The notes under the pieces: generated by a model
The model's database searches: none
What the model was told of the DNA's origin: nothing
Seen by the model: the letters and a program-made list of their open reading frames with translations, nothing else
Source: Microvirga splendida
GTDB taxonomy: Bacteria > Pseudomonadota > Alphaproteobacteria > Rhizobiales > Beijerinckiaceae
NCBI RefSeq assembly: GCF_016427565.1
Contig: NZ_JAELXT010000012.1
Location: 1-64,000, forward strand
Direction: 5' to 3'
DNA: 64,000 nucleotides
Shown here: piece after piece, positions 7,927 to 17,318 of the stretch
Layout: each line of letters opens with the position of its first letter
Position numbering within the stretch: the stretch's first letter is position 1
Program-made: the position numbers and the translations under genes

Positions 7927-8868
7927 TCAATATCCCCGCACCCGATCCACCACGGCGTCGAACGGCTCGCCCGCCTCATGGCGGCGGATCTGCTCGGCGA
8001 TGTAGCGCGCCGTCGCCTCGGGCTCGCTCGTCGCCGAGTTGTGCGGCGTGACCGTGACGCGCGGATGCGTCCAGAGCGGCGATTCCTCCGGCAGCGGCTC
8101 CGTCTCGAATACGTCGAGGGTTGCGGCCCGCAAGGTTCCGTCTTCGAGGCAGGAGAGGATGTCGGCCTCCACCTGCAGCTTGCCGCGCCCCGCATTGATC
8201 AGGATCGGCCCGCCGAGCCTGCCGTCGCGGGCGAGCTTCTCGAACAGGGAGCGGTCGAGGATGCCCTGCGTATCGGGCGTGAGCGGCATGAGGGCAATCA
8301 GGATATCCGTGCGGTTCAGGAACGGCACCAGCCCCTCCTCGCCCGCATAGACCTGGAAGCCTTCCACATCCTTTGCCGTGCGGCTCCAGCCGGCCACATC
8401 GAAGCCCATCATCTTCAGCTTGCGGGCGGAGTCCTGCCCCAGCACGCCGAAGCCCATGATGCCGACGCGCACATCGCCTGCAATCGGCGGGGCGCGATCC
8501 GGCTTCCAGCGCTTCGCTTTCTGGTCCTCGTCGAAGCGGCGCTGATCGCGCAGGTACATGAGGCAGTGCAGCACCATGTACTCGCTCATGCGGTGGGTGA
8601 GATCGTCCTGCGCCACGCGCACGATGGGCACGTCCGGCAGGTCGGGATAGCTCATCAGGTGATCGACGCCGGCGCCGAGCGAGAAGATCGCCTCGAGGTT
8701 CGGCAGGCCCGAGAGGCTTCCAGGCTTTGGCCCCCAGGTCGCCACGTAGCGGATTGCGTCCCTATCGAATTCCTCGCCGAGCACGACAATGTCGCGATCC
8801 GGCAGGTACCGCTTGAAGCGCTCGACCCAGGGCTGCGTCTGCCAGGTGACGGCAACGAGAAGGCTCAT
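7927..8868 (-). CDS. ghrA: Glyoxylate/hydroxypyruvate reductase A
   Basis: 313 aa D-2-hydroxyacid dehydrogenase of the GhrA branch. The NAD(P)-binding site is VGIMGFGVLGQDSARKL, the catalytic Arg lies in INAGRGK, and the catalytic His is in the C-terminal PHNSA motif. It reduces glyoxylate to glycolate and hydroxypyruvate to D-glycerate. It overlaps the end of the start codon region of deoA by 4 nt (8865-8868), so it is probably co-transcribed with the deo genes, although its substrate is not obviously a product of nucleoside breakdown. Malate synthase G, another glyoxylate enzyme, lies elsewhere in the window. Confidence 0.9.
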   Translation of the reverse strand: MSLLVAVTWQTQPWVERFKRYLPDRDIVVLGEEFDRDAIRYVATWGPKPGSLSGLPNLEAIFSLGAGVDHLMSYPDLPDVPIVRVAQDDLTHRMSEYMVLHCLMYLRDQRRFDEDQKAKRWKPDRAPPIAGDVRVGIMGFGVLGQDSARKLKMMGFDVAGWSRTAKDVEGFQVYAGEEGLVPFLNRTDILIALMPLTPDTQGILDRSLFEKLARDGRLGGPILINAGRGKLQVEADILSCLEDGTLRAATLDVFETEPLPEESPLWTHPRVTVTPHNSATSEPEATARYIAEQIRRHEAGEPFDAVVDRVRGY

Positions 8869-10187
8869 GCCGTGGCTCCTATGCGCTCGAGAATGCTCGG
8901 GCCTGAAGCGGCTTGTGCATCACCAATGCGATAAGCAGCACGCACAGCGCGCGCCGCCGCTTCGGCCGCGTCTTCGCTGCGGGCATGCACGATCGCGAGC
9001 GGACGCGAGGCATCGACTCTCTCGCCGACGGCAGCGAGCTCTGTGAGCCCGACCGCATGATCGATGGGATCCTGCGGACGCGTACGCCCCCCGCCGAGTG
9101 CCACCACGGCCACACCGACGTCGCGCGTGGCGATGCTCTGCACGATGCCGGAGCCCTCCGGGTGAATGGAACGAACGATGGGCGCTGCCTGCAGATGCTT
9201 CTCGTGATTGTCGAGGAAGTCGGCGGGGCCGCCGAGGGCGGACACCATGCGCTGGAAGACCTCGGCGGCCTTGCCCGATGCAATCGCATGCTCGATCTTC
9301 GCACGCGCCTCATCGATATCGGCAGCGAGCTTGCCGAGCACGAGCATCTCGGCGGAGAGTTCCACCGTCACCTCGTGGAAGCGCTTCTCACGGCGACGGC
9401 CGGTCAGGTAATCGACCGCATAAGCCATCTCGACCGCGTTGCCGGCAGCCGATGCGAGCGGTTCGTTCATGTCGGTCAGCAGCGCGCTCGTGGGCAGACC
9501 TGCGCCGTTGGCGACGAGCACGAGGCTCTGGGCGAGCTTTCTCGCATCGTCCGCATTGTCCATGAAGGCGCCGGAGCCGAACTTCACGTCCATCACGAGG
9601 CCCTGGAGGCCGGCAGACAGCTTCTTCGACAGGATGGAGGCGGTGATGAGGTCGATGGATTCCACCGTCGCCGTCACGTCGCGGATGGCATAGAGGCGCT
9701 TGTCGGCCGGCGCGAGATCGGCCGTCTGGCCGATGATGGCGCAGCCCACGTCGCGCGTGACACGGCGGAACGTGTCGAGATCGGGTTGCGTGACATAGCC
9801 CGGAATGGAATCGAACTTGTCCAGCGTGCCGCCCGTGTGGCCGAGGCCGCGCCCGGAGATCATCGGCACGTAGCCGCCGCAGGCGGCGACCGCCGGTCCG
9901 AGCGCAAGGCTCACCGTGTCGCCGACGCCGCCGGTGGAATGCTTGTCGAGCACCGGGCCGGGCAGGTCCCAGGTCAGCACCGTGCCCGAATTCATCATGG
10001 CGCGGGTGAGCGCCACGCGCTCCGGCACGGAGAGGCCGCGAAAGAAGATCGCCATGGCGAAGGACGCCGCCTGGCCCTCAGTCACACGGCCTGCGGTCAT
10101 TCCCTCGATGAACTGCTCGATGTGCTCCGCCTCGAGCGTGCCGCCGTCGCGCTTGCGGCGGATGATTTCCTGCGGAAGAAGGCTCAT
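8865..10187 (-). CDS. deoA: Thymidine phosphorylase
   Basis: 440 aa, the standard length for DeoA. The signature segment SGRGLGHTGGTLDKFDSIPG is present around residue 110 and the phosphate/base-binding KHSTGGVGDT near residue 82. It splits thymidine or deoxyuridine into free base plus deoxyribose-1-phosphate. It is the third of three catabolic genes (punA, deoC, deoA) that follow each other with overlaps or a 1-bp gap. Product uracil could be taken by the upp/URC set on the plus strand of this window. The start ATG at 10185-10187 sits just after the deoC stop with a GAAGAAG-like ribosome site. Confidence 0.96.
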   Translation of the reverse strand: MSLLPQEIIRRKRDGGTLEAEHIEQFIEGMTAGRVTEGQAASFAMAIFFRGLSVPERVALTRAMMNSGTVLTWDLPGPVLDKHSTGGVGDTVSLALGPAVAACGGYVPMISGRGLGHTGGTLDKFDSIPGYVTQPDLDTFRRVTRDVGCAIIGQTADLAPADKRLYAIRDVTATVESIDLITASILSKKLSAGLQGLVMDVKFGSGAFMDNADDARKLAQSLVLVANGAGLPTSALLTDMNEPLASAAGNAVEMAYAVDYLTGRRREKRFHEVTVELSAEMLVLGKLAADIDEARAKIEHAIASGKAAEVFQRMVSALGGPADFLDNHEKHLQAAPIVRSIHPEGSGIVQSIATRDVGVAVVALGGGRTRPQDPIDHAVGLTELAAVGERVDASRPLAIVHARSEDAAEAAARAVRAAYRIGDAQAASGPSILERIGATA

Positions 10188-10188
10188 G

Positions 10189-10950
10189 CTAGTAGGCTCC
10201 GGTAGCGGCCGCGCCGGCCCGTCCTTCGATGGCGGCGATCAAGGTGTCGTAGACGCTGCTCGCGCCGATGCGGAATGTCTGGGGCGTAGCCCAGCCCTCT
10301 CCCATGATGCGCTCAGTGAGATCGAGATAGATCTTCGCATCGGCCAGGGTGCGGATGCCGCCGGAGGGCTTGAGGCCGACGGAACGCCCCGAAGCCTTGA
10401 TGGCGTTGAGCATGATCTCGGCCGCTTCCGGCGTGGCGGAAACCGGCGTCTTGCCCGTGGATGTCTTGATGAAGTCGGCACCGGCCTCGATGGCGATGCG
10501 GCTTGCGGTTTCGATGAGCTTCGGATCCCTCAGCTCGCCCGTTTCGAGAATGACCTTCAGCAAAAGATCGCCATTGATGCGTTCGCGCACGGCCTCCACC
10601 ATCTCACGCGCGGCTGCGAGATCGCCACGGCGCACGGCCTCGTAGGGCAGCACGAGATCGATCTCGTTGGCGCCGTCGGAGAGCGCCTCCTGCGTGTCGT
10701 CGGTGACGCGGCTCACATCCTCGCCGCCGGCGGGGAAATTCACCACCGTGGCGATGCGCACGGAAGAACCTTTGAGATTGGCCTGTGCGCGCTTGACGAA
10801 TTGCGGCCACACGCACACGGCCGCCACCGGCCCGCGCGGATCGAGCGCCTTCTGGCACAGCGCGTCGATGGCCTGGTCGGTGCAGGTATCCGTCAGGTCC
10901 GTGAGATCGAGGCTGCGCAGGGCGCGCACGGCAATAGCCGCATCAGACAT
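10189..10950 (-). CDS. deoC: Deoxyribose-phosphate aldolase
   Basis: 253 aa from the ATG at 10948-10950 with GGAG upstream; a start 15 bases further out is possible but poorer. The Schiff-base lysine lies in the FIKTSTGK motif, and the class I aldolase barrel motifs (VNFPAGG, EIDLVLP, GLKPSGGIR) are intact. It cleaves deoxyribose-5-phosphate to acetaldehyde and glyceraldehyde-3-phosphate. The start overlaps the end of punA by 8 nt. No deoB phosphopentomutase, needed to make its substrate from deoxyribose-1-phosphate, is present in this window. Confidence 0.96.
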   Translation of the reverse strand: MSDAAIAVRALRSLDLTDLTDTCTDQAIDALCQKALDPRGPVAAVCVWPQFVKRAQANLKGSSVRIATVVNFPAGGEDVSRVTDDTQEALSDGANEIDLVLPYEAVRRGDLAAAREMVEAVRERINGDLLLKVILETGELRDPKLIETASRIAIEAGADFIKTSTGKTPVSATPEAAEIMLNAIKASGRSVGLKPSGGIRTLADAKIYLDLTERIMGEGWATPQTFRIGASSVYDTLIAAIEGRAGAAATGAY

Positions 10951-11764
10951 GGGGCAGCTCCGCAATGAAGGACCGAACGAGACGCTTGAACTTCTCGGAG
11001 GCTTCCGCCGCCGTGTCCTTGGTCTCCTGGTGCGAGGGCGATGCGCCCTCGATGCCGGCCGCCAGGTTGGTGACCACGGAAATGGCCGCGACCTTCAAGC
11101 CGTAATAGCGGGCGAGGATCACCTCCGGCACGGTCGACATGCCGACGAGATCGCCGCCGAGGATCTGCACCATCTTGATCTCCGCCGGCGTCTCGAAGCT
11201 CGGCCCCGACAGCCAGGCATAGACGCCTTCCGGCAGTTCGATCCCGGTCTTCTGCGCAGCACGCTGCAGCGTCCGTCGCAGGCCCTCGTCATAGGCGCCC
11301 GTGAGCGACACGAAGCGGCCTTCCGTGTGATCGCGCAGCAGCGGATTGGCGCCCGACAGGTTGAGGTGATCGCTGATCGCCACAAGGCTGCCGGGGCGGA
11401 TGTCGGCCCGCACTGAACCCGCCGCGTTGGTGGCGACGAGAACCGGGATGCCGAGTTCCTTCACGAAGGCCACGGGCACGCGCATCGCGCCCGCATCACC
11501 CGTCTCGTAGTAGTGCGCGCGGCCTTGGAAGAGCAAAACGCGCTTGCCCTCGAGGGTGCCGGCCACGAGCTTGCCCGCATGCCCGGAGACGCCGCTTCTC
11601 GGGAAATGCGGGATCTCCGCGTAAGGCAGGCTCACCGCGTCGCTGACCTCGTCCACCAGAGTGCCGAGGCCCGTGCCGAGCACGAAGGCTGCATCGAAAT
11701 GGCCGTCGAAGCCGCGGCTGCGCACGAAGGCGGCCGCTTCCTGAATCATCTGCTGCATCGTCAT
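10943..11764 (-). CDS. punA: Purine-nucleoside phosphorylase (trimeric PNP family)
   Basis: 273 aa, typical of the trimeric PNP/MTAP family (about 270-280 aa) and not the hexameric DeoD type. Visible motifs are the phosphate loop VLGTGLG near residue 30, HFPRSGVSGHAG, ATNAAGSV, and GMSTVPEVILARYYG with VVTNLAAG near the C-terminus. It releases purine base and (deoxy)ribose-1-phosphate. An in-frame ATG six bases later (11756-11758) is an equal start candidate. It lies between cdd and deoC in the nucleoside operon. Confidence 0.93.
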   Translation of the reverse strand: MTMQQMIQEAAAFVRSRGFDGHFDAAFVLGTGLGTLVDEVSDAVSLPYAEIPHFPRSGVSGHAGKLVAGTLEGKRVLLFQGRAHYYETGDAGAMRVPVAFVKELGIPVLVATNAAGSVRADIRPGSLVAISDHLNLSGANPLLRDHTEGRFVSLTGAYDEGLRRTLQRAAQKTGIELPEGVYAWLSGPSFETPAEIKMVQILGGDLVGMSTVPEVILARYYGLKVAAISVVTNLAAGIEGASPSHQETKDTAAEASEKFKRLVRSFIAELPHV

Positions 11765-11809: not shown

Positions 11810-12214
11810 TTACCGATCCGTCAAATTGTCGGGGCCGAAGGAGAACGGCAGCAGCTCGTCGAGCGTGAAGCTCCTGCGGATGCCCTCGGGTCCGGCAACG
11901 TGAACGGGCGTGTCGGGCGCGGCGAATTCGCGGATGCGCTGGCGGCATCCGCCGCAGGGCGTGCACAGAACATCGCCCTCCCCCATCACGACGATCTGCG
12001 CGATGCGGTTGCCGCCGGCGGCGATCATCGCCGAGACGGCGCCGGCCTCCGCGCAGGAGCCCACCGGGTAGGCGGCGTTCTCCACGTTGCAGCCGGTGAA
12101 GATCCGGCCGTCCGGCGTGGCGATCGCCGCACCGACCTTGAACCGGGAATAGGGCGCATAGGCCTTGGCCTGGATCGCCCTGGCCGCCTCGAACAGCGTG
12201 TCCAACGATACCAT
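11810..12214 (-). CDS. cdd: Cytidine deaminase
   Basis: 134 aa, the length of the homotetrameric zinc enzyme. The ATG at 12212-12214 opens MVSLDTLFEAARAIQAKAY; upstream is TGAGC only 2-6 nt away, so initiation probably relies on coupling to the permease stop at 12217. Motifs are PYSRFKVGAA, NVENAAYP, SCAEAGA (zinc Cys and catalytic Glu) and PCGGCRQ (two zinc Cys). It deaminates cytidine and deoxycytidine to uridine forms. Placed after the importer genes and before punA, it feeds the phosphorylase steps. Confidence 0.95.
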   Translation of the reverse strand: MVSLDTLFEAARAIQAKAYAPYSRFKVGAAIATPDGRIFTGCNVENAAYPVGSCAEAGAVSAMIAAGGNRIAQIVVMGEGDVLCTPCGGCRQRIREFAAPDTPVHVAGPEGIRRSFTLDELLPFSFGPDNLTDR

Positions 12215-12216
12215 GC

Positions 12217-13122
12217 TCAGCGCTCCTTCACATAAGGAATGCCGGCCGCACGGGGCGGAATGGCCCTGCCGATGACGCCGGCGAGCAGGATGACCGTCAT
12301 GAGATAGGGCAGCGCCTGGATGGCCTGCACCGGCACCTCGCCGATGCCCGGCAGCGACAGCCCTTGCAGCTGGTTGGCGCTGGCATCGAGCAGGCCGAAC
12401 AGGAAGCAGGCGCCGAGCGCCGGCCATGCACGCCACTTGGCGAAGATGAGGGCGGCGAGCGCGATGAACCCGCGGCCTGCTGTCATGTTGGGCAGGAAGC
12501 CCGCTGCCTGCCCGACCGACAGATAGGCGCCCGCAAACCCGCACAGAACGCCCGCGATGACGACGGCGGTGTAGCGCAGCCCCGTCACGGAGATGCCCGC
12601 GGTATCGACCGCAGCCGGGTTCTCGCCGACAGCGCGCAGGCGCAGGCCGAAGCGGGTGCGGCCGAGCACGAACCATGTGACCGGCACGGCGAGCAGGACG
12701 ATGTAGACAAGCGCCGAATGGCCGAAGAGAACGCTGCCGAAACGCTGATCGCCTTCGAGCGGCGGCGTGCGCCCGCCCTGGCTATACCAGGCATTGCCGA
12801 TGATCGCCGTGAGGCCCGCAGCCAGCATGTTGATGGCGACGCCGGAGACGATCTGGTTGCCGCGCTGGCTGATGGACGCGAAGCCGTGAACGAGCCCGAT
12901 GGCCACGGAGGCCGCGATGCCGATCAGCAGACCGGCCCAGGCGGAGCCGAGCGCATAGGCACCGGCCGCGCTCGCGAAAGCCGCCACCAGCATCTTGCCC
13001 TCGAGGCCGATATCCACCACGCCGGAGCGCTCGGACCAGAGGCCGGCGAGACAGGCGGCGAGAAGCGGGATCGAGAGCCGGAGGGCCGAGTCGAAGATCG
13101 TGACGAGAAGACCGAGATCCAT
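12217..13122 (-). CDS. Nucleoside ABC transporter permease (second)
   Basis: 301 aa from the ATG at 13120-13122, with GAGGG upstream. Belongs to the BPD_transp_2 family (YufQ/NupC-like). The core motif WSERSGVVDIGLEGKM near residue 30-45 and the GFxFGLL-like C-terminal segments identify it; eight or so hydrophobic segments are visible. It forms the membrane channel with the preceding permease. The gene starts 4 bp after the first permease stops, and ends 2 bp before cdd starts. Confidence 0.92.
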   Translation of the reverse strand: MDLGLLVTIFDSALRLSIPLLAACLAGLWSERSGVVDIGLEGKMLVAAFASAAGAYALGSAWAGLLIGIAASVAIGLVHGFASISQRGNQIVSGVAINMLAAGLTAIIGNAWYSQGGRTPPLEGDQRFGSVLFGHSALVYIVLLAVPVTWFVLGRTRFGLRLRAVGENPAAVDTAGISVTGLRYTAVVIAGVLCGFAGAYLSVGQAAGFLPNMTAGRGFIALAALIFAKWRAWPALGACFLFGLLDASANQLQGLSLPGIGEVPVQAIQALPYLMTVILLAGVIGRAIPPRAAGIPYVKER

Positions 13123-13126
13123 GATC

Positions 13127-14230
13127 TTATGCCCTCGCCAGCTTCTGGCGCGTGAAGAGATGCGCCACCAGGCGCCGGAACAATCCGTCGAGCGCGCCCG
13201 CAAACAGGATGATGATGCCGCCGATCACCACCACCATGTCGCGGGTGATGGCCGGCTGCTCGAAGGCGAGCTCCGCGCCGCCCTGATAGAGAATGCCGAA
13301 CAGCAGCGAAGCCAGGATGATGCCCACCGGATGCGCGCGCCCCATGAGCGCCACCGCGATGCCGACGAAGCCGTAGCCGGAGGTGAACTCCAGCAGCAGG
13401 CGATGCTGGTAGCCCATCAGCTCGTTGACCGCGAGGCCGCCGGCGAGCGCCCCGGACAGCACCATGGCGATGATGATGATGCGCGCCGGCGAGATGCCGG
13501 CATAGACCGCGGCGCTCGGGTTCGAGCCGACGACACGGATCGCAAAGCCGAGGCGCGAGCGGTAGATGAGTAGCCAGACGAAATAGGCCGCAGCCAGCGC
13601 CAGCACCAGCGTGAGGTTGAGCTGCGAGTTCGGGATCTCGACGCCGAAGGCGGCGAACACGTCGTGCATGAACGGGATGTACGACTGCTCGGGAAAGGCC
13701 CGCGTCTCCGGGTTCATGGATTGCGGCTCGCGCAGCACGTTCACGAGCAGGTAGACGATCAGCACGCTGGCGAGCCAGTTGAACATGATCGTCGTGATGA
13801 CGATGTGGCTGCCGCGCTTGGCCTGCAGATAGCCCGGAATGGCGGCCCACATGGCCCCGAAGGCCGCAGCGCCCAGGATGCCGAGCGGGATGAGCAGGAA
13901 GCCCGGCAGGAAGGTGAAGTTGTTCAGCACCAGCGCGATGCCGAGGCCCGCGAGCGTCGCCTGTCCCTCGCCGCCGATGTTGAACAGCCCCGCATGGAAG
14001 GCGACCGCCACGGCGAGGCCGACGAAGATGAAGTCGGTCATGTAGAACAGGGTGAAGCCGAGTCCCTCCCCGGTGCCGAGGCTGCCCTGGAGCAGCCAGC
14101 GGGTGGCCGTCAGCGGGTTTTCGCCGATGGCGAGCACGACGAGGCCGGCAACGAGGAAAGCCGCCGTCACGGAGATGGCGGGCACGAGAACCGTATCGGC
14201 CCATCTGGGCAGGTCGAGGGGAGCACTCAC
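13127..14230 (-). CDS. Nucleoside ABC transporter permease (first)
   Basis: 367 aa, BPD_transp_2 family (YufP/NupB-like). Long hydrophobic segments begin at residue 15, and the family motif NIGGEGQATLAGLG lies about residue 85-98. Its ATG overlaps the stop of the VOC gene (ATGA at 14227-14230), which indicates tight translational coupling. The partners are the ATPase, the second permease and the BMP-type binding protein; together they make a nucleoside importer of the type found in Gram-positive Nup/Yuf systems and rhizobia. Confidence 0.92.
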   Translation of the reverse strand: MSAPLDLPRWADTVLVPAISVTAAFLVAGLVVLAIGENPLTATRWLLQGSLGTGEGLGFTLFYMTDFIFVGLAVAVAFHAGLFNIGGEGQATLAGLGIALVLNNFTFLPGFLLIPLGILGAAAFGAMWAAIPGYLQAKRGSHIVITTIMFNWLASVLIVYLLVNVLREPQSMNPETRAFPEQSYIPFMHDVFAAFGVEIPNSQLNLTLVLALAAAYFVWLLIYRSRLGFAIRVVGSNPSAAVYAGISPARIIIIAMVLSGALAGGLAVNELMGYQHRLLLEFTSGYGFVGIAVALMGRAHPVGIILASLLFGILYQGGAELAFEQPAITRDMVVVIGGIIILFAGALDGLFRRLVAHLFTRQKLARA

Positions 14231-14661
14231 GTCTGAGAATCCGGCAGGAACAGGTGGCCCTGTTCGTCGAGAGGGAAGGACGGGTTCCAGGCCACCTCCC
14301 AGAGGTGCCCGTCGGGATCGGCGAAATAGCCCGAATAGCCGCCCCAGAACACATCCTGCAGCGGCTTGACCGGGCGTGCGCCGGCCTTCACGGCCAGGGC
14401 GAAGACTGCGTCGGCCTCCTCCCTGGAGTGAGCGTTGTAGGCCAGCGTGATGGCGGCAAAGCCGGTGGGCCTGTCCTCGACGCCGGCATCCTTGGCGAGA
14501 TCGGCGCGCCCGAAGAGGGCGAGCGCCAGACCGTTCGCCTGATAGAAGGCGACGCTGGGCTGGCTGGCGGAGGACGCCTTCCAGCCCCAGGCTTCGTAGA
14601 AGGCGCGGGACTTCGCAAGGTCGGCAACGCCGAGGGTGACGAGGGTCAGTCGCGGCTGCAT
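14227..14661 (-). CDS. VOC (glyoxalase-fold) family protein inside importer operon
   Basis: 144 aa from the ATG at 14659-14661. The N-terminal segment LTLVTLGVADLAKSRAFYEAWGW and the C-terminal GYFADPDGHLWEVAWNP are the two characteristic VOC half-motifs; the metal-ligand Glu is in LWEV. It overlaps the ATPase gene by one base at its start and the permease ATG by four at its stop, so it is expressed with the importer. The sequence resembles bleomycin-resistance/lactoylglutathione-lyase-type proteins without a substrate I can name. No usual role for such a protein in nucleoside uptake is known to me. Confidence 0.85.
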   Translation of the reverse strand: MQPRLTLVTLGVADLAKSRAFYEAWGWKASSASQPSVAFYQANGLALALFGRADLAKDAGVEDRPTGFAAITLAYNAHSREEADAVFALAVKAGARPVKPLQDVFWGGYSGYFADPDGHLWEVAWNPSFPLDEQGHLFLPDSQT

Positions 14662-16184
14662 CAGGCGGCCTCGTCCACGACGCCGGCCATGAGCAGGCCG
14701 AGCTCCTGCTCGTTGGTCTGGGAAGCCTTGCGCTCGCCCGTGATCTTGCCGCCGCACATGGTGAGGATGCGGTCGGACAGGTTCATGATCTCGTCCAGCT
14801 CCACCGAGACGAGCAGGATGGCGACGCCCGCGTCGCGCAGGGCGATCAGGCGGCTGTGGATGAACTCGATGGCCCCGATATCGACGCCGCGGGTCGGCTG
14901 ACCGACGAGCAGCACCTTCGGGTTGCGCTCGATCTCGCGGGCGAGCACGATCTTCTGCTGGTTGCCGCCGGAGAATTTCGACGATGTCAGCCGCGGCGCC
15001 GGCGGGCGCACGTCGTACTGCTCCATCTTCTGCGCCAGATCCGCAATGAGGCGGTCGTGATCGAGGATGGGGCCGCGGCCGAGATGCGGCTCGTGGCTGA
15101 AGCCGAGGATGGCGCTCTCGAAAGCCGGGAAAGCCGGCACGAGCCCCATGCGCAGCCGGTCTTCCGGCACATGGAGCAGGCCGAGCTGGCGCATGCGGTG
15201 CGGATTGTGCCCCCTGGAACGGATCGCCTGGCCTTCAAGCCTGATCGAGCCCAGCACGGGCTGGCGCATGCCGGCGATGGCCTCGAGCAGCTCGCTCTGG
15301 CCGTTGCCCGCGACACCGGCGATGCCGACGATTTCGCCCGCCCGGACGGTGAAGGAGGCGTTGGCCACGCGCAGCACGCCGCGCGGATCGACGACGGAGA
15401 GGTTCTCGACCTCCAGCAGCGGCGCGCCGGGCGTCTTCTCCGCCTTCTCGACGCGCAGGAGCACGCGCCGGCCCACCATCAGCTCGGCGAGTTCCGGCGG
15501 CGAGGTTTCGGCGGTCTCGACGGTCGCCACCATCTCGCCGCGGCGCATGACCGAGACGCGATCCGTGATGGCCATGATCTCGCGCAGCTTGTGGGTGATG
15601 AGGATGACGGTCTTGCCCTGCTCCTTCAGGGAGCGCAGCAGGCCGAACAGCGCATCGGCCTCCGGCGGCGTGAGCACGGCGGTGGGCTCGTCGAGAATGA
15701 GGATATCCGCGCCGCGATAGAGCGCCTTCAGAATTTCAACACGCTGCTGCAGGCCCACGGAGAGGTCACCCACGGTGGCGTCCACGTCGATCTCGAGGCC
15801 GTAATCCTGGGCGAGCCGGGCCAGCTCCGCACGCACCTTGGCCTCGCCGGCCCGCAGCATGGCGCCGCCTTCGGCGCCGAGCATCACGTTCTCGACCACG
15901 CTCAGGGGCTCCACCAGCATGAAGTGCTGGTGCACCATGCCGATGCCGGCCTGGATGGCGTCGTCGGGAGAGCGGATGGCAATGGGCTTGCCGTTGACCC
16001 GGACCTCGCCGGAATCCGCCTCGTAGAAGCCGTACAGGATCGACATGAGCGTCGACTTGCCTGCGCCGTTCTCGCCGACGATGCCGTGGATCGTGCCGCG
16101 CGCGACGGAGAGGTTCACGTCCTTGTTGGCGTGAACGGCACCGAAGCTCTTGTTGATGGCAATGAGTTCAATGGCGGGGGACAT
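14661..16184 (-). CDS. Nucleoside ABC transporter ATP-binding protein (tandem NBD)
   Basis: 507 aa from the ATG at 16182-16184. A TTG three codons upstream is also open but has no ribosome site. Two fused nucleotide-binding domains: the first has Walker A GENGAGKST near residue 37, a Q-loop (VHQHFML) and Walker B LILDEPTAVL; the second has a degenerate Walker A (GVAGNGQSE near 285) and signature SGGNQQK. This asymmetric pair is standard for BMP/ribose-type importers (YufO, NupA, RbsA). It is separated from the binding-protein gene by a strong hairpin terminator, so its expression is probably partial read-through from that gene or from its own weak promoter. Confidence 0.93.
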   Translation of the reverse strand: MSPAIELIAINKSFGAVHANKDVNLSVARGTIHGIVGENGAGKSTLMSILYGFYEADSGEVRVNGKPIAIRSPDDAIQAGIGMVHQHFMLVEPLSVVENVMLGAEGGAMLRAGEAKVRAELARLAQDYGLEIDVDATVGDLSVGLQQRVEILKALYRGADILILDEPTAVLTPPEADALFGLLRSLKEQGKTVILITHKLREIMAITDRVSVMRRGEMVATVETAETSPPELAELMVGRRVLLRVEKAEKTPGAPLLEVENLSVVDPRGVLRVANASFTVRAGEIVGIAGVAGNGQSELLEAIAGMRQPVLGSIRLEGQAIRSRGHNPHRMRQLGLLHVPEDRLRMGLVPAFPAFESAILGFSHEPHLGRGPILDHDRLIADLAQKMEQYDVRPPAPRLTSSKFSGGNQQKIVLAREIERNPKVLLVGQPTRGVDIGAIEFIHSRLIALRDAGVAILLVSVELDEIMNLSDRILTMCGGKITGERKASQTNEQELGLLMAGVVDEAA

Positions 16185-16313: not shown

Positions 16314-17318
16314 TTACACCGGGCACTTGGAGTCCGACATGTAGTCGTGGACCTTGATGGCGCCGGACTTGATGTCGGCGGCGGCCTTGTCGGCGGCGGC
16401 CTTCATCTCGGGGGTGATGAGCGGCTTGTTGTGCTCGTCGAGCGCCCAGGCCACGCCGTCCTCCTTGAGGCCGAGCACGGACACGCCCGGCTTGAAGGTG
16501 CCCTTCTTGGCCTGGTCGAAGGCGTTGTAGGTGGCGACATCCACGCGCTTGACCATGGAGGTCAGCACCTTGCCCGGGTGCATGCCGTTCTGGTTCGAGT
16601 CGACACCGATGCCGAGCTTGCCCGCGTCGGCGGCCGCGCGCAGCACGCCCACGCCGGTGCCGCCGGCCGCATGGTAGATCACGTCGGCGCCGCGATCGAT
16701 CTGGCCCTTGGCGAGCTCGCCGCCCTTCACCGGATCGTTCCAGGCCGCACCCGTGGTGCCGGTCATGTTCTGGAACACTTCGGTCTTCGGATCGGCGTGC
16801 TTGGCGCCCTGCACGTAGCCGCAGGCGAACTTGCGGATGAGCGGGATGTCCATGCCGCCCACGAAGCCGACCTTGTCGGTCTTGGAGGCCATGGCGGCCA
16901 GGAGGCCGACCAGGAACGAGCCCTCATGCTCCTTGAACACGACGGACTGCACGTTCGGCTTCTCGACCACGGCGTCGATGATGGCGAACTGGGTCTTCGG
17001 GAACTCCTCGGCGACCTTCTTCAGCGCGGTCTCCTGGGAGAAGCCCACGGCCAGGATCGGCGAGAAGCCGTCGCGGGCGAAGCGGCGCAGGGCCTGCTCA
17101 CGCTGCGCGTCGTTCTGCGGCTCGAAATCGCGGTAATCGGTGCCGGTGTCCTTCTTGTACTTCTCGGCGCCGGTGTGGACGCCCTCGTTGAAGGACTTGT
17201 CGAACTTGCCGCCGAGATCGTAGACGATCGCGGGCTTGAAGGCCGGAGCCTGAGCGAAGGCAAAGGAAGCGGAAAAGGCGAGGCCCGCGAGCGCGAGGCC
17301 GAACTTGGTTACTGTCAT
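16314..17318 (-). CDS. BMP-family ABC substrate-binding protein (nucleoside type)
   Basis: 334 aa. The signal peptide is clear: MTVTKFGLALAGLAFSASFA with cleavage around FAFAQA, and no lipobox cysteine. The mature protein has the BMP/Med motif VYDLGGKFDKSFNEG near residue 34 and later segments GFVGGMDIPLIRKF and VIYHAAGGTGVGVL typical of the PnrA/BmpA fold. It acts in the periplasm and delivers ligand to the tandem-ATPase importer encoded downstream. Nucleoside specificity is inferred from the cdd-punA-deoC-deoA neighbours. Confidence 0.93.
   Translation of the reverse strand: MTVTKFGLALAGLAFSASFAFAQAPAFKPAIVYDLGGKFDKSFNEGVHTGAEKYKKDTGTDYRDFEPQNDAQREQALRRFARDGFSPILAVGFSQETALKKVAEEFPKTQFAIIDAVVEKPNVQSVVFKEHEGSFLVGLLAAMASKTDKVGFVGGMDIPLIRKFACGYVQGAKHADPKTEVFQNMTGTTGAAWNDPVKGGELAKGQIDRGADVIYHAAGGTGVGVLRAAADAGKLGIGVDSNQNGMHPGKVLTSMVKRVDVATYNAFDQAKKGTFKPGVSVLGLKEDGVAWALDEHNKPLITPEMKAAADKAAADIKSGAIKVHDYMSDSKCPV

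Follow-up and report, generated by a model that had tools for sequence, protein, structure and literature searches.

The window analysed here is a stretch of 64,000 nt from Microvirga splendida (NZ_JAELXT010000012.1, positions 1 to 64,000), and within it an importer operon raises the question of why a gene for a small VOC-fold protein lies between an ABC ATPase gene and a permease gene, and whether that protein serves the importer. All genes of the operon are on the − strand, and their order, which is kept in Microvirga loci, is as follows: a BMP/PnrA-like substrate-binding protein (16314..17318; PF02608), an ATPase with two ABC domains (14661..16175; two stretches of PF00005), the VOC gene, permease 1 with a GTG start (13127..14230) and permease 2 (12217..13131), both matching PF02653 (BPD_transp_2), cytidine deaminase (cdd, 11810..12217; TIGR01354), purine nucleoside phosphorylase (pnp, 10943..11764; TIGR01698), deoxyribose-phosphate aldolase DeoC (10189..10950; TIGR00126) and thymidine phosphorylase DeoA (8865..10187; TIGR02643). 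As it joins a BMP protein and a double ATPase to a pair of BPD_transp_2 permeases, beside nucleoside catabolism genes, this is a BMP-type nucleoside importer operon, in which a nucleoside is the probable import substrate because of the neighbouring catabolism genes.

The 144-aa ORF in question (ATG start, 14227..14661, −) scores 52.9 bits against the Pfam Glyoxalase profile (PF00903), as compared to a gathering score of 20.6 bits, which places it in the VOC superfamily; within that it belongs to the 3BQX-type subfamily. At its start the sequence reads GCCTGATGCAG, the ATPase TGA (14663-14661) and the VOC ATG having one nucleotide in common as TGATG (14661..14663, −). At its 3′ end the sequence reads ACGTGAGTG, where the VOC TGA (14229-14227) and the permease 1 GTG (14230-14228) overlap over 4 nt as GTGA (14227..14230, −). 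An earlier note on this DNA, which had the VOC gene overlapping the ATPase and permease genes by 1–4 nt, was thus accurate. Judged from these junctions, the VOC protein is likely to be translated together with the importer; promoter and terminator scans gave no signal above shuffles.

The arrangement is not peculiar to this strain. Every one of the 33 top-ranking named relatives of the window VOC protein comes from Microvirga, and at all 33 loci the gene occupies the slot between ATPase and permease and retains the 1-nt TGATG overlap, while its junction with the permease is a 4-nt overlap at 23 loci and a 3-nt spacing at 10. In whole genomes, VOC immediately precedes permease 1 in 46 of 48 Microvirga (coordinates compared by eye). 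Relative to the window, median dN/dS (32–33 loci per gene) is 0.082 for VOC, as compared to 0.098 for the ATPase, 0.089 for permease 1, 0.105 for permease 2, 0.169 for the BMP protein, 0.115 for Cdd and 0.078 for Pnp, so that VOC is under purifying selection as strong as that on the importer genes. The outcome that the earlier note had named as fatal to its proposal, an insertion unique to this strain and diverging neutrally, is therefore contradicted by conservation across the genus and by the dN/dS: the VOC gene in this slot is real, conserved, selected and not strain-specific. A diverged VOC copy (36–46% identity; see L269, L299 and L300) is present elsewhere in 19 of the 48 genomes (hand count), in 17 of them besides the slot copy.

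Two Microvirga genomes have no intact slot VOC, and both retain the other eight operon genes. In the slot of G547, 47 codons remain in frame and both overlaps persist, whereas the G544 slot is closed, the ATPase and permease genes overlapping as GTGA (junctions read by eye; the loci, L298 5858-5998 and L297 5959-5998, have a short in-frame remnant in one and a closed junction in the other). The G547 remnant, with its two overlaps and open frame, is what one would expect of a pure hitchhiker or spacer, for which the slot would have been filled once by chance and VOC kept mainly since its removal disturbs translation of the downstream permease; the overlapping junctions also fit. Yet the low dN/dS and the conservation of the pocket region in 36 of 36 aligned rows show selection on the protein itself, and G544 and most related operons manage without any spacer; we consider this explanation distinctly improbable.

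How often this VOC subfamily occupies BMP-importer operons, a frequency that the earlier note had proposed to check, can be stated as all 33 Microvirga loci and 12 of 118 other Hyphomicrobiales loci. The 118 comprise 53 loci from Microvirga's own family (of the 60 genomes that have permease 1, these represent 53; six others belong to Microvirga, namely the window and L004-L008, and G107 was left out) and 65 from other families, hand-picked from 190 order genomes with a match so that each genus contributed roughly one to a few. VOC is carried by 8 of the 53 and 4 of the 65, or by 14 of the 59 family genomes examined if the six Microvirga are included; no VOC was found in the stretch retrieved around the remaining 106. 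Where present at these loci, the gene always sits between ATPase and permease 1 (12 of 12) and nowhere else in the retrieved stretch, although in L147 and L211 the gap holds further sequence besides VOC. Such placement is not predicted of a random passenger, save in the case that a single event filled the slot. Junctions wider than 330 nt occur between ATPase and permease 1 in 15 of 113 cases, 12 of them due to VOC and three to another gene. The corresponding counts are 1/117 between the two permeases, 2/106 between permease 2 and cdd, 3/98 for cdd|pnp, 0/59 for pnp|deoC, 0/60 for deoC|deoA and 2/29 for pnp|deoA; the BMP|ATPase junction is loose, being wide in 29 of 108.

Several further features of these loci were recorded. 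Another slot gene, encoding about 306 aa, is found in two families (L194 9016-9936, −; L195 2688-3608, +; L204 about 9048-9728, −); its product has an apparent signal peptide and GGAHCC and CYACSAP motifs, and the L194 copy lacks a Pfam match. Two BMP-type substrate-binding genes stand in tandem at eight importer loci (L127, L128, L142, L167, L168, L176, L180 and L197). The BMP and ATPase genes lie apart from the permease and catabolism genes in four genomes, three from g21 and one from g36 (L114-L117, L301-L304), and in these four no VOC was found within about 1.5 kb of the ATPase gene.

Whether the slot was filled once or several times was addressed with trees of both the operon and the VOC protein. 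An ATPase+permease tree of 116 rows (five Microvirga and 111 of the 118 loci, seven without a full-length upstream ATPase or permease being left out) requires at least 8 changes in VOC presence, all 8 forced by starred branches, and a single gain would cost 24–25 losses; slot occupancy may therefore have arisen repeatedly. Among VOC proteins, the operonic label changes 6 times (3 forced) on a quick tree of 149 rows and 5 times (2 forced; 3–5 over bootstraps) on a careful tree of 65 rows, and in 200 bootstraps of the latter the operonic rows form one clade in 0%. An AU test did not reject a topology that unites all 16 operonic rows in one clade (p 0.311). For 10 tips, the operonic VOC and operon topologies agree on 3 of 7 splits, a level attained in 102 of 20000 shuffles of the labels, while the VOC data marginally reject the exact operon tree in favour of their own best tree (p 0.037). 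Residue 125 is Trp in 34 of 34 Microvirga proteins and His in all 11 other readable operonic copies (L153 is masked), as compared to 59 Trp, 25 His, 19 Phe, 18 Tyr and 7 unread among 128 non-operonic rows; this split fits either a substitution on the stem of Microvirga or an exchange of the gene in the slot. The evidence on origin is mixed, being patchy on the operon tree and clustered, but not as one clade, on the VOC trees, with topologies more alike than shuffled ones.

Many members of the subfamily lie elsewhere, in other company. A VOC match at E ≤ 1e-20 occurs in 238 of 397 order genomes, mostly once per genome. For 86 non-operonic loci whose flanks were long enough, we surveyed up to six neighbours each, using simple gene picking, with 19 neighbours typed by Pfam (one or two per cluster) and the remaining members assigned by BLAST clustering. 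The genes that recur beside VOC encode a radical SAM protein (13 loci), a rhodanese (8, from Azospirillum and one record named Roseomonas), an enoyl-CoA hydratase accompanied by a CoA-binding protein (7) and ribonucleotide reductase (3), and a theme common to the neighbours at the 86 loci was sought and not found. In L281 and L282, VOC overlaps each neighbour by 4 nt (again by simple gene picking), so close packing is not specific to the importer. These many unrelated neighbours make a captured general-purpose binding protein more likely than a dedicated importer part.

Co-occurrence leads in the same direction. In the family, presence of VOC and of the permease is associated (26/34/16/73, p 0.0014; hand counts, with relatedness uncorrected), but without the 14 operonic genomes the association is gone, VOC being found in 12 of 46 genomes with permease 1 and 16 of 89 without (12/34/16/73, p 0.27). 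Among 250 class-level genomes (VOC at E ≤ 1e-25, a threshold that misses weaker VOC genes, and permease at E ≤ 1e-60), 45 have VOC, 51 have the permease and 18 have both; the two are adjacent in the window's genome only, and in none of the 17 others with both (compared by eye). These figures bear on the idea that VOC is a true partner of the importer, handling the imported nucleoside, its base or a reactive by-product of nucleoside catabolism, with the slot securing co-production. Such a role would account for the slot-specific placement in all 12 non-Microvirga cases, the near genus-wide presence in Microvirga, the strength of selection, a slot that was perhaps filled repeatedly (at least 8 changes on the operon tree) and the ribonucleotide reductase gene that precedes three ectopic VOC copies. 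It is at odds with the 106 of 118 loci at which VOC was not seen, with the lack of a nucleoside theme among the remaining recurrent ectopic neighbours, and with the missing association outside the slot and the unlinked genes in the 17 class-level genomes. A partnership specific to BMP-type importers is thus unsupported as far as tested, and we hold it to be possible but rather unlikely.

The protein itself offers clues to its function. An AlphaFold2 model is confident (pLDDT 90.2), and its best 50 structural matches are all VOC chains (Z 9.5–15.6), confirming the fold. Residues that are the same in all 36 aligned rows include N76, W106-G107-G108-Y109, G111-Y112-F113, W121, N126 and P127, and E122 is nearly invariant. 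What we take to be the FosA-type metal-ligand columns fall at window positions 7, 70 and 122. As placed by sequence alignment over 145 rows, which include some genes twice, column 7 is Leu, Ile, Val, Met or Phe in 144 and column 70 is mostly Gly or Ala, so that two of the three ligand columns are lost and only the glutamate E122 is left, in 144 of 145; nearby H119 is common (118/145). The retained glutamate, together with VOC superfamily membership, is shared with the FosA/FosB fosfomycin thiol transferases, and 35 of the 36 rows weakly match NCBIfam FosA models (E 3.1e-9 at best), as would be expected if the protein were a metal-dependent resistance enzyme like FosA or glyoxalase I. However, the scores are far under the NCBIfam cut-offs (30.3 bits against 275 for the FosA3/FosA4 model), and with two ligand columns gone we give an enzyme of this kind hardly any credence.

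By sequence, the closest solved relative is 3BQX, a glyoxalase-related protein of Fulvimarina pelagi with no function in its title (8.3e-34 with a profile, 34% identity), which has the TLG..DL, N76 and GG..GY.ADPDGH.WE.A.NP stretches in common with the window protein but a histidine aligned at W106, which is thus not conserved there. Foldseek ranks 3BQX first by E-value, yet with an rmsd of 12.9, and it is absent from the best 50 of the other structural comparison; the poor superposition perhaps reflects a domain-swapped arrangement. The best structural match is instead the mitomycin C-binding protein MRD (1KMZ, 1KLL; for 1kmz, Z 15.6, rmsd 2.6, 123 aligned residues, 21% identity), whose W108, which we take to be a clamp residue, aligns with window W106. 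An MRD/EhpR-type protein would combine this fold with two aromatic clamp residues; beside the fold match, W106 is the one candidate aligned in the window protein. EhpR and MRD grip flat aromatic ligands by pi-stacking, and the EhpR site is without catalytic residues, according to the EhpR report (PMC3175449).

The loss of metal columns, the MRD match, the W106/W108 alignment and the pi-stacking of EhpR and MRD lead us to propose a metal-free binder of aromatic molecules. We put slightly better than even confidence in the reading that VOC binds a flat aromatic molecule in the cytosol without a metal, has a job of its own, and was captured into the operon, where it is kept by selection for that job rather than for transport. 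A member of a widespread 3BQX-type subfamily, usually present as one copy per genome, it would hold or neutralise a flat aromatic compound, like mitomycin-binding MRD and phenazine-binding EhpR; in Hyphomicrobiales, one or more capture events would have placed it in the BMP-type nucleoside importer operon, in the slot between ATPase and permease, and there its two overlapping junctions, TGATG and GTGA, may allow it to be made by termination-reinitiation with the importer. That importer operons without VOC are the rule, and that Microvirga has lost it twice, was counted in favour of this captured binder; counted against it were the slot-specific placement at the 12 loci, the association with the permease in the family when operonic genomes are included, the common H119 near the retained glutamate and the histidine of 3BQX at W106. 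Of the two roles that the earlier note had offered, processor of an imported compound or detoxification passenger, the passenger is the nearer.

Among the matches listed from the open-licence PMC literature, no title or abstract opening mentions an operon that combines a BMP importer with a VOC gene. The present case carries a caution for guilt by association: operon membership is tight, overlapping and near genus-wide, yet the wider subfamily has no single stable partner. The gene is ordinary in that its subfamily also adjoins many unrelated genes, and a partnership with the importer is unproven. The same VOC subfamily in and out of an importer operon, together with the two Microvirga losses, moreover provides a natural experiment that could reveal the ligands of 3BQX-type proteins. 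Compared with BMP/PnrA-type nucleoside ABC importer operons, the window operon shares the importer and nucleoside catabolism genes and differs by the VOC gene between ATPase and permease 1, which was not found at most of the related loci. A bolder idea, which we judge improbable, is that VOC acts as a cytosolic acceptor or clean-up clamp, co-produced with the importer, for a planar ligand just emerging from it, whether an imported nucleoside, a base or a base that is modified or reactive. If true, this would make it an import-side counterpart of EhpR, for which the same paper proposes a chaperone role in phenazine export (PMC3175449).
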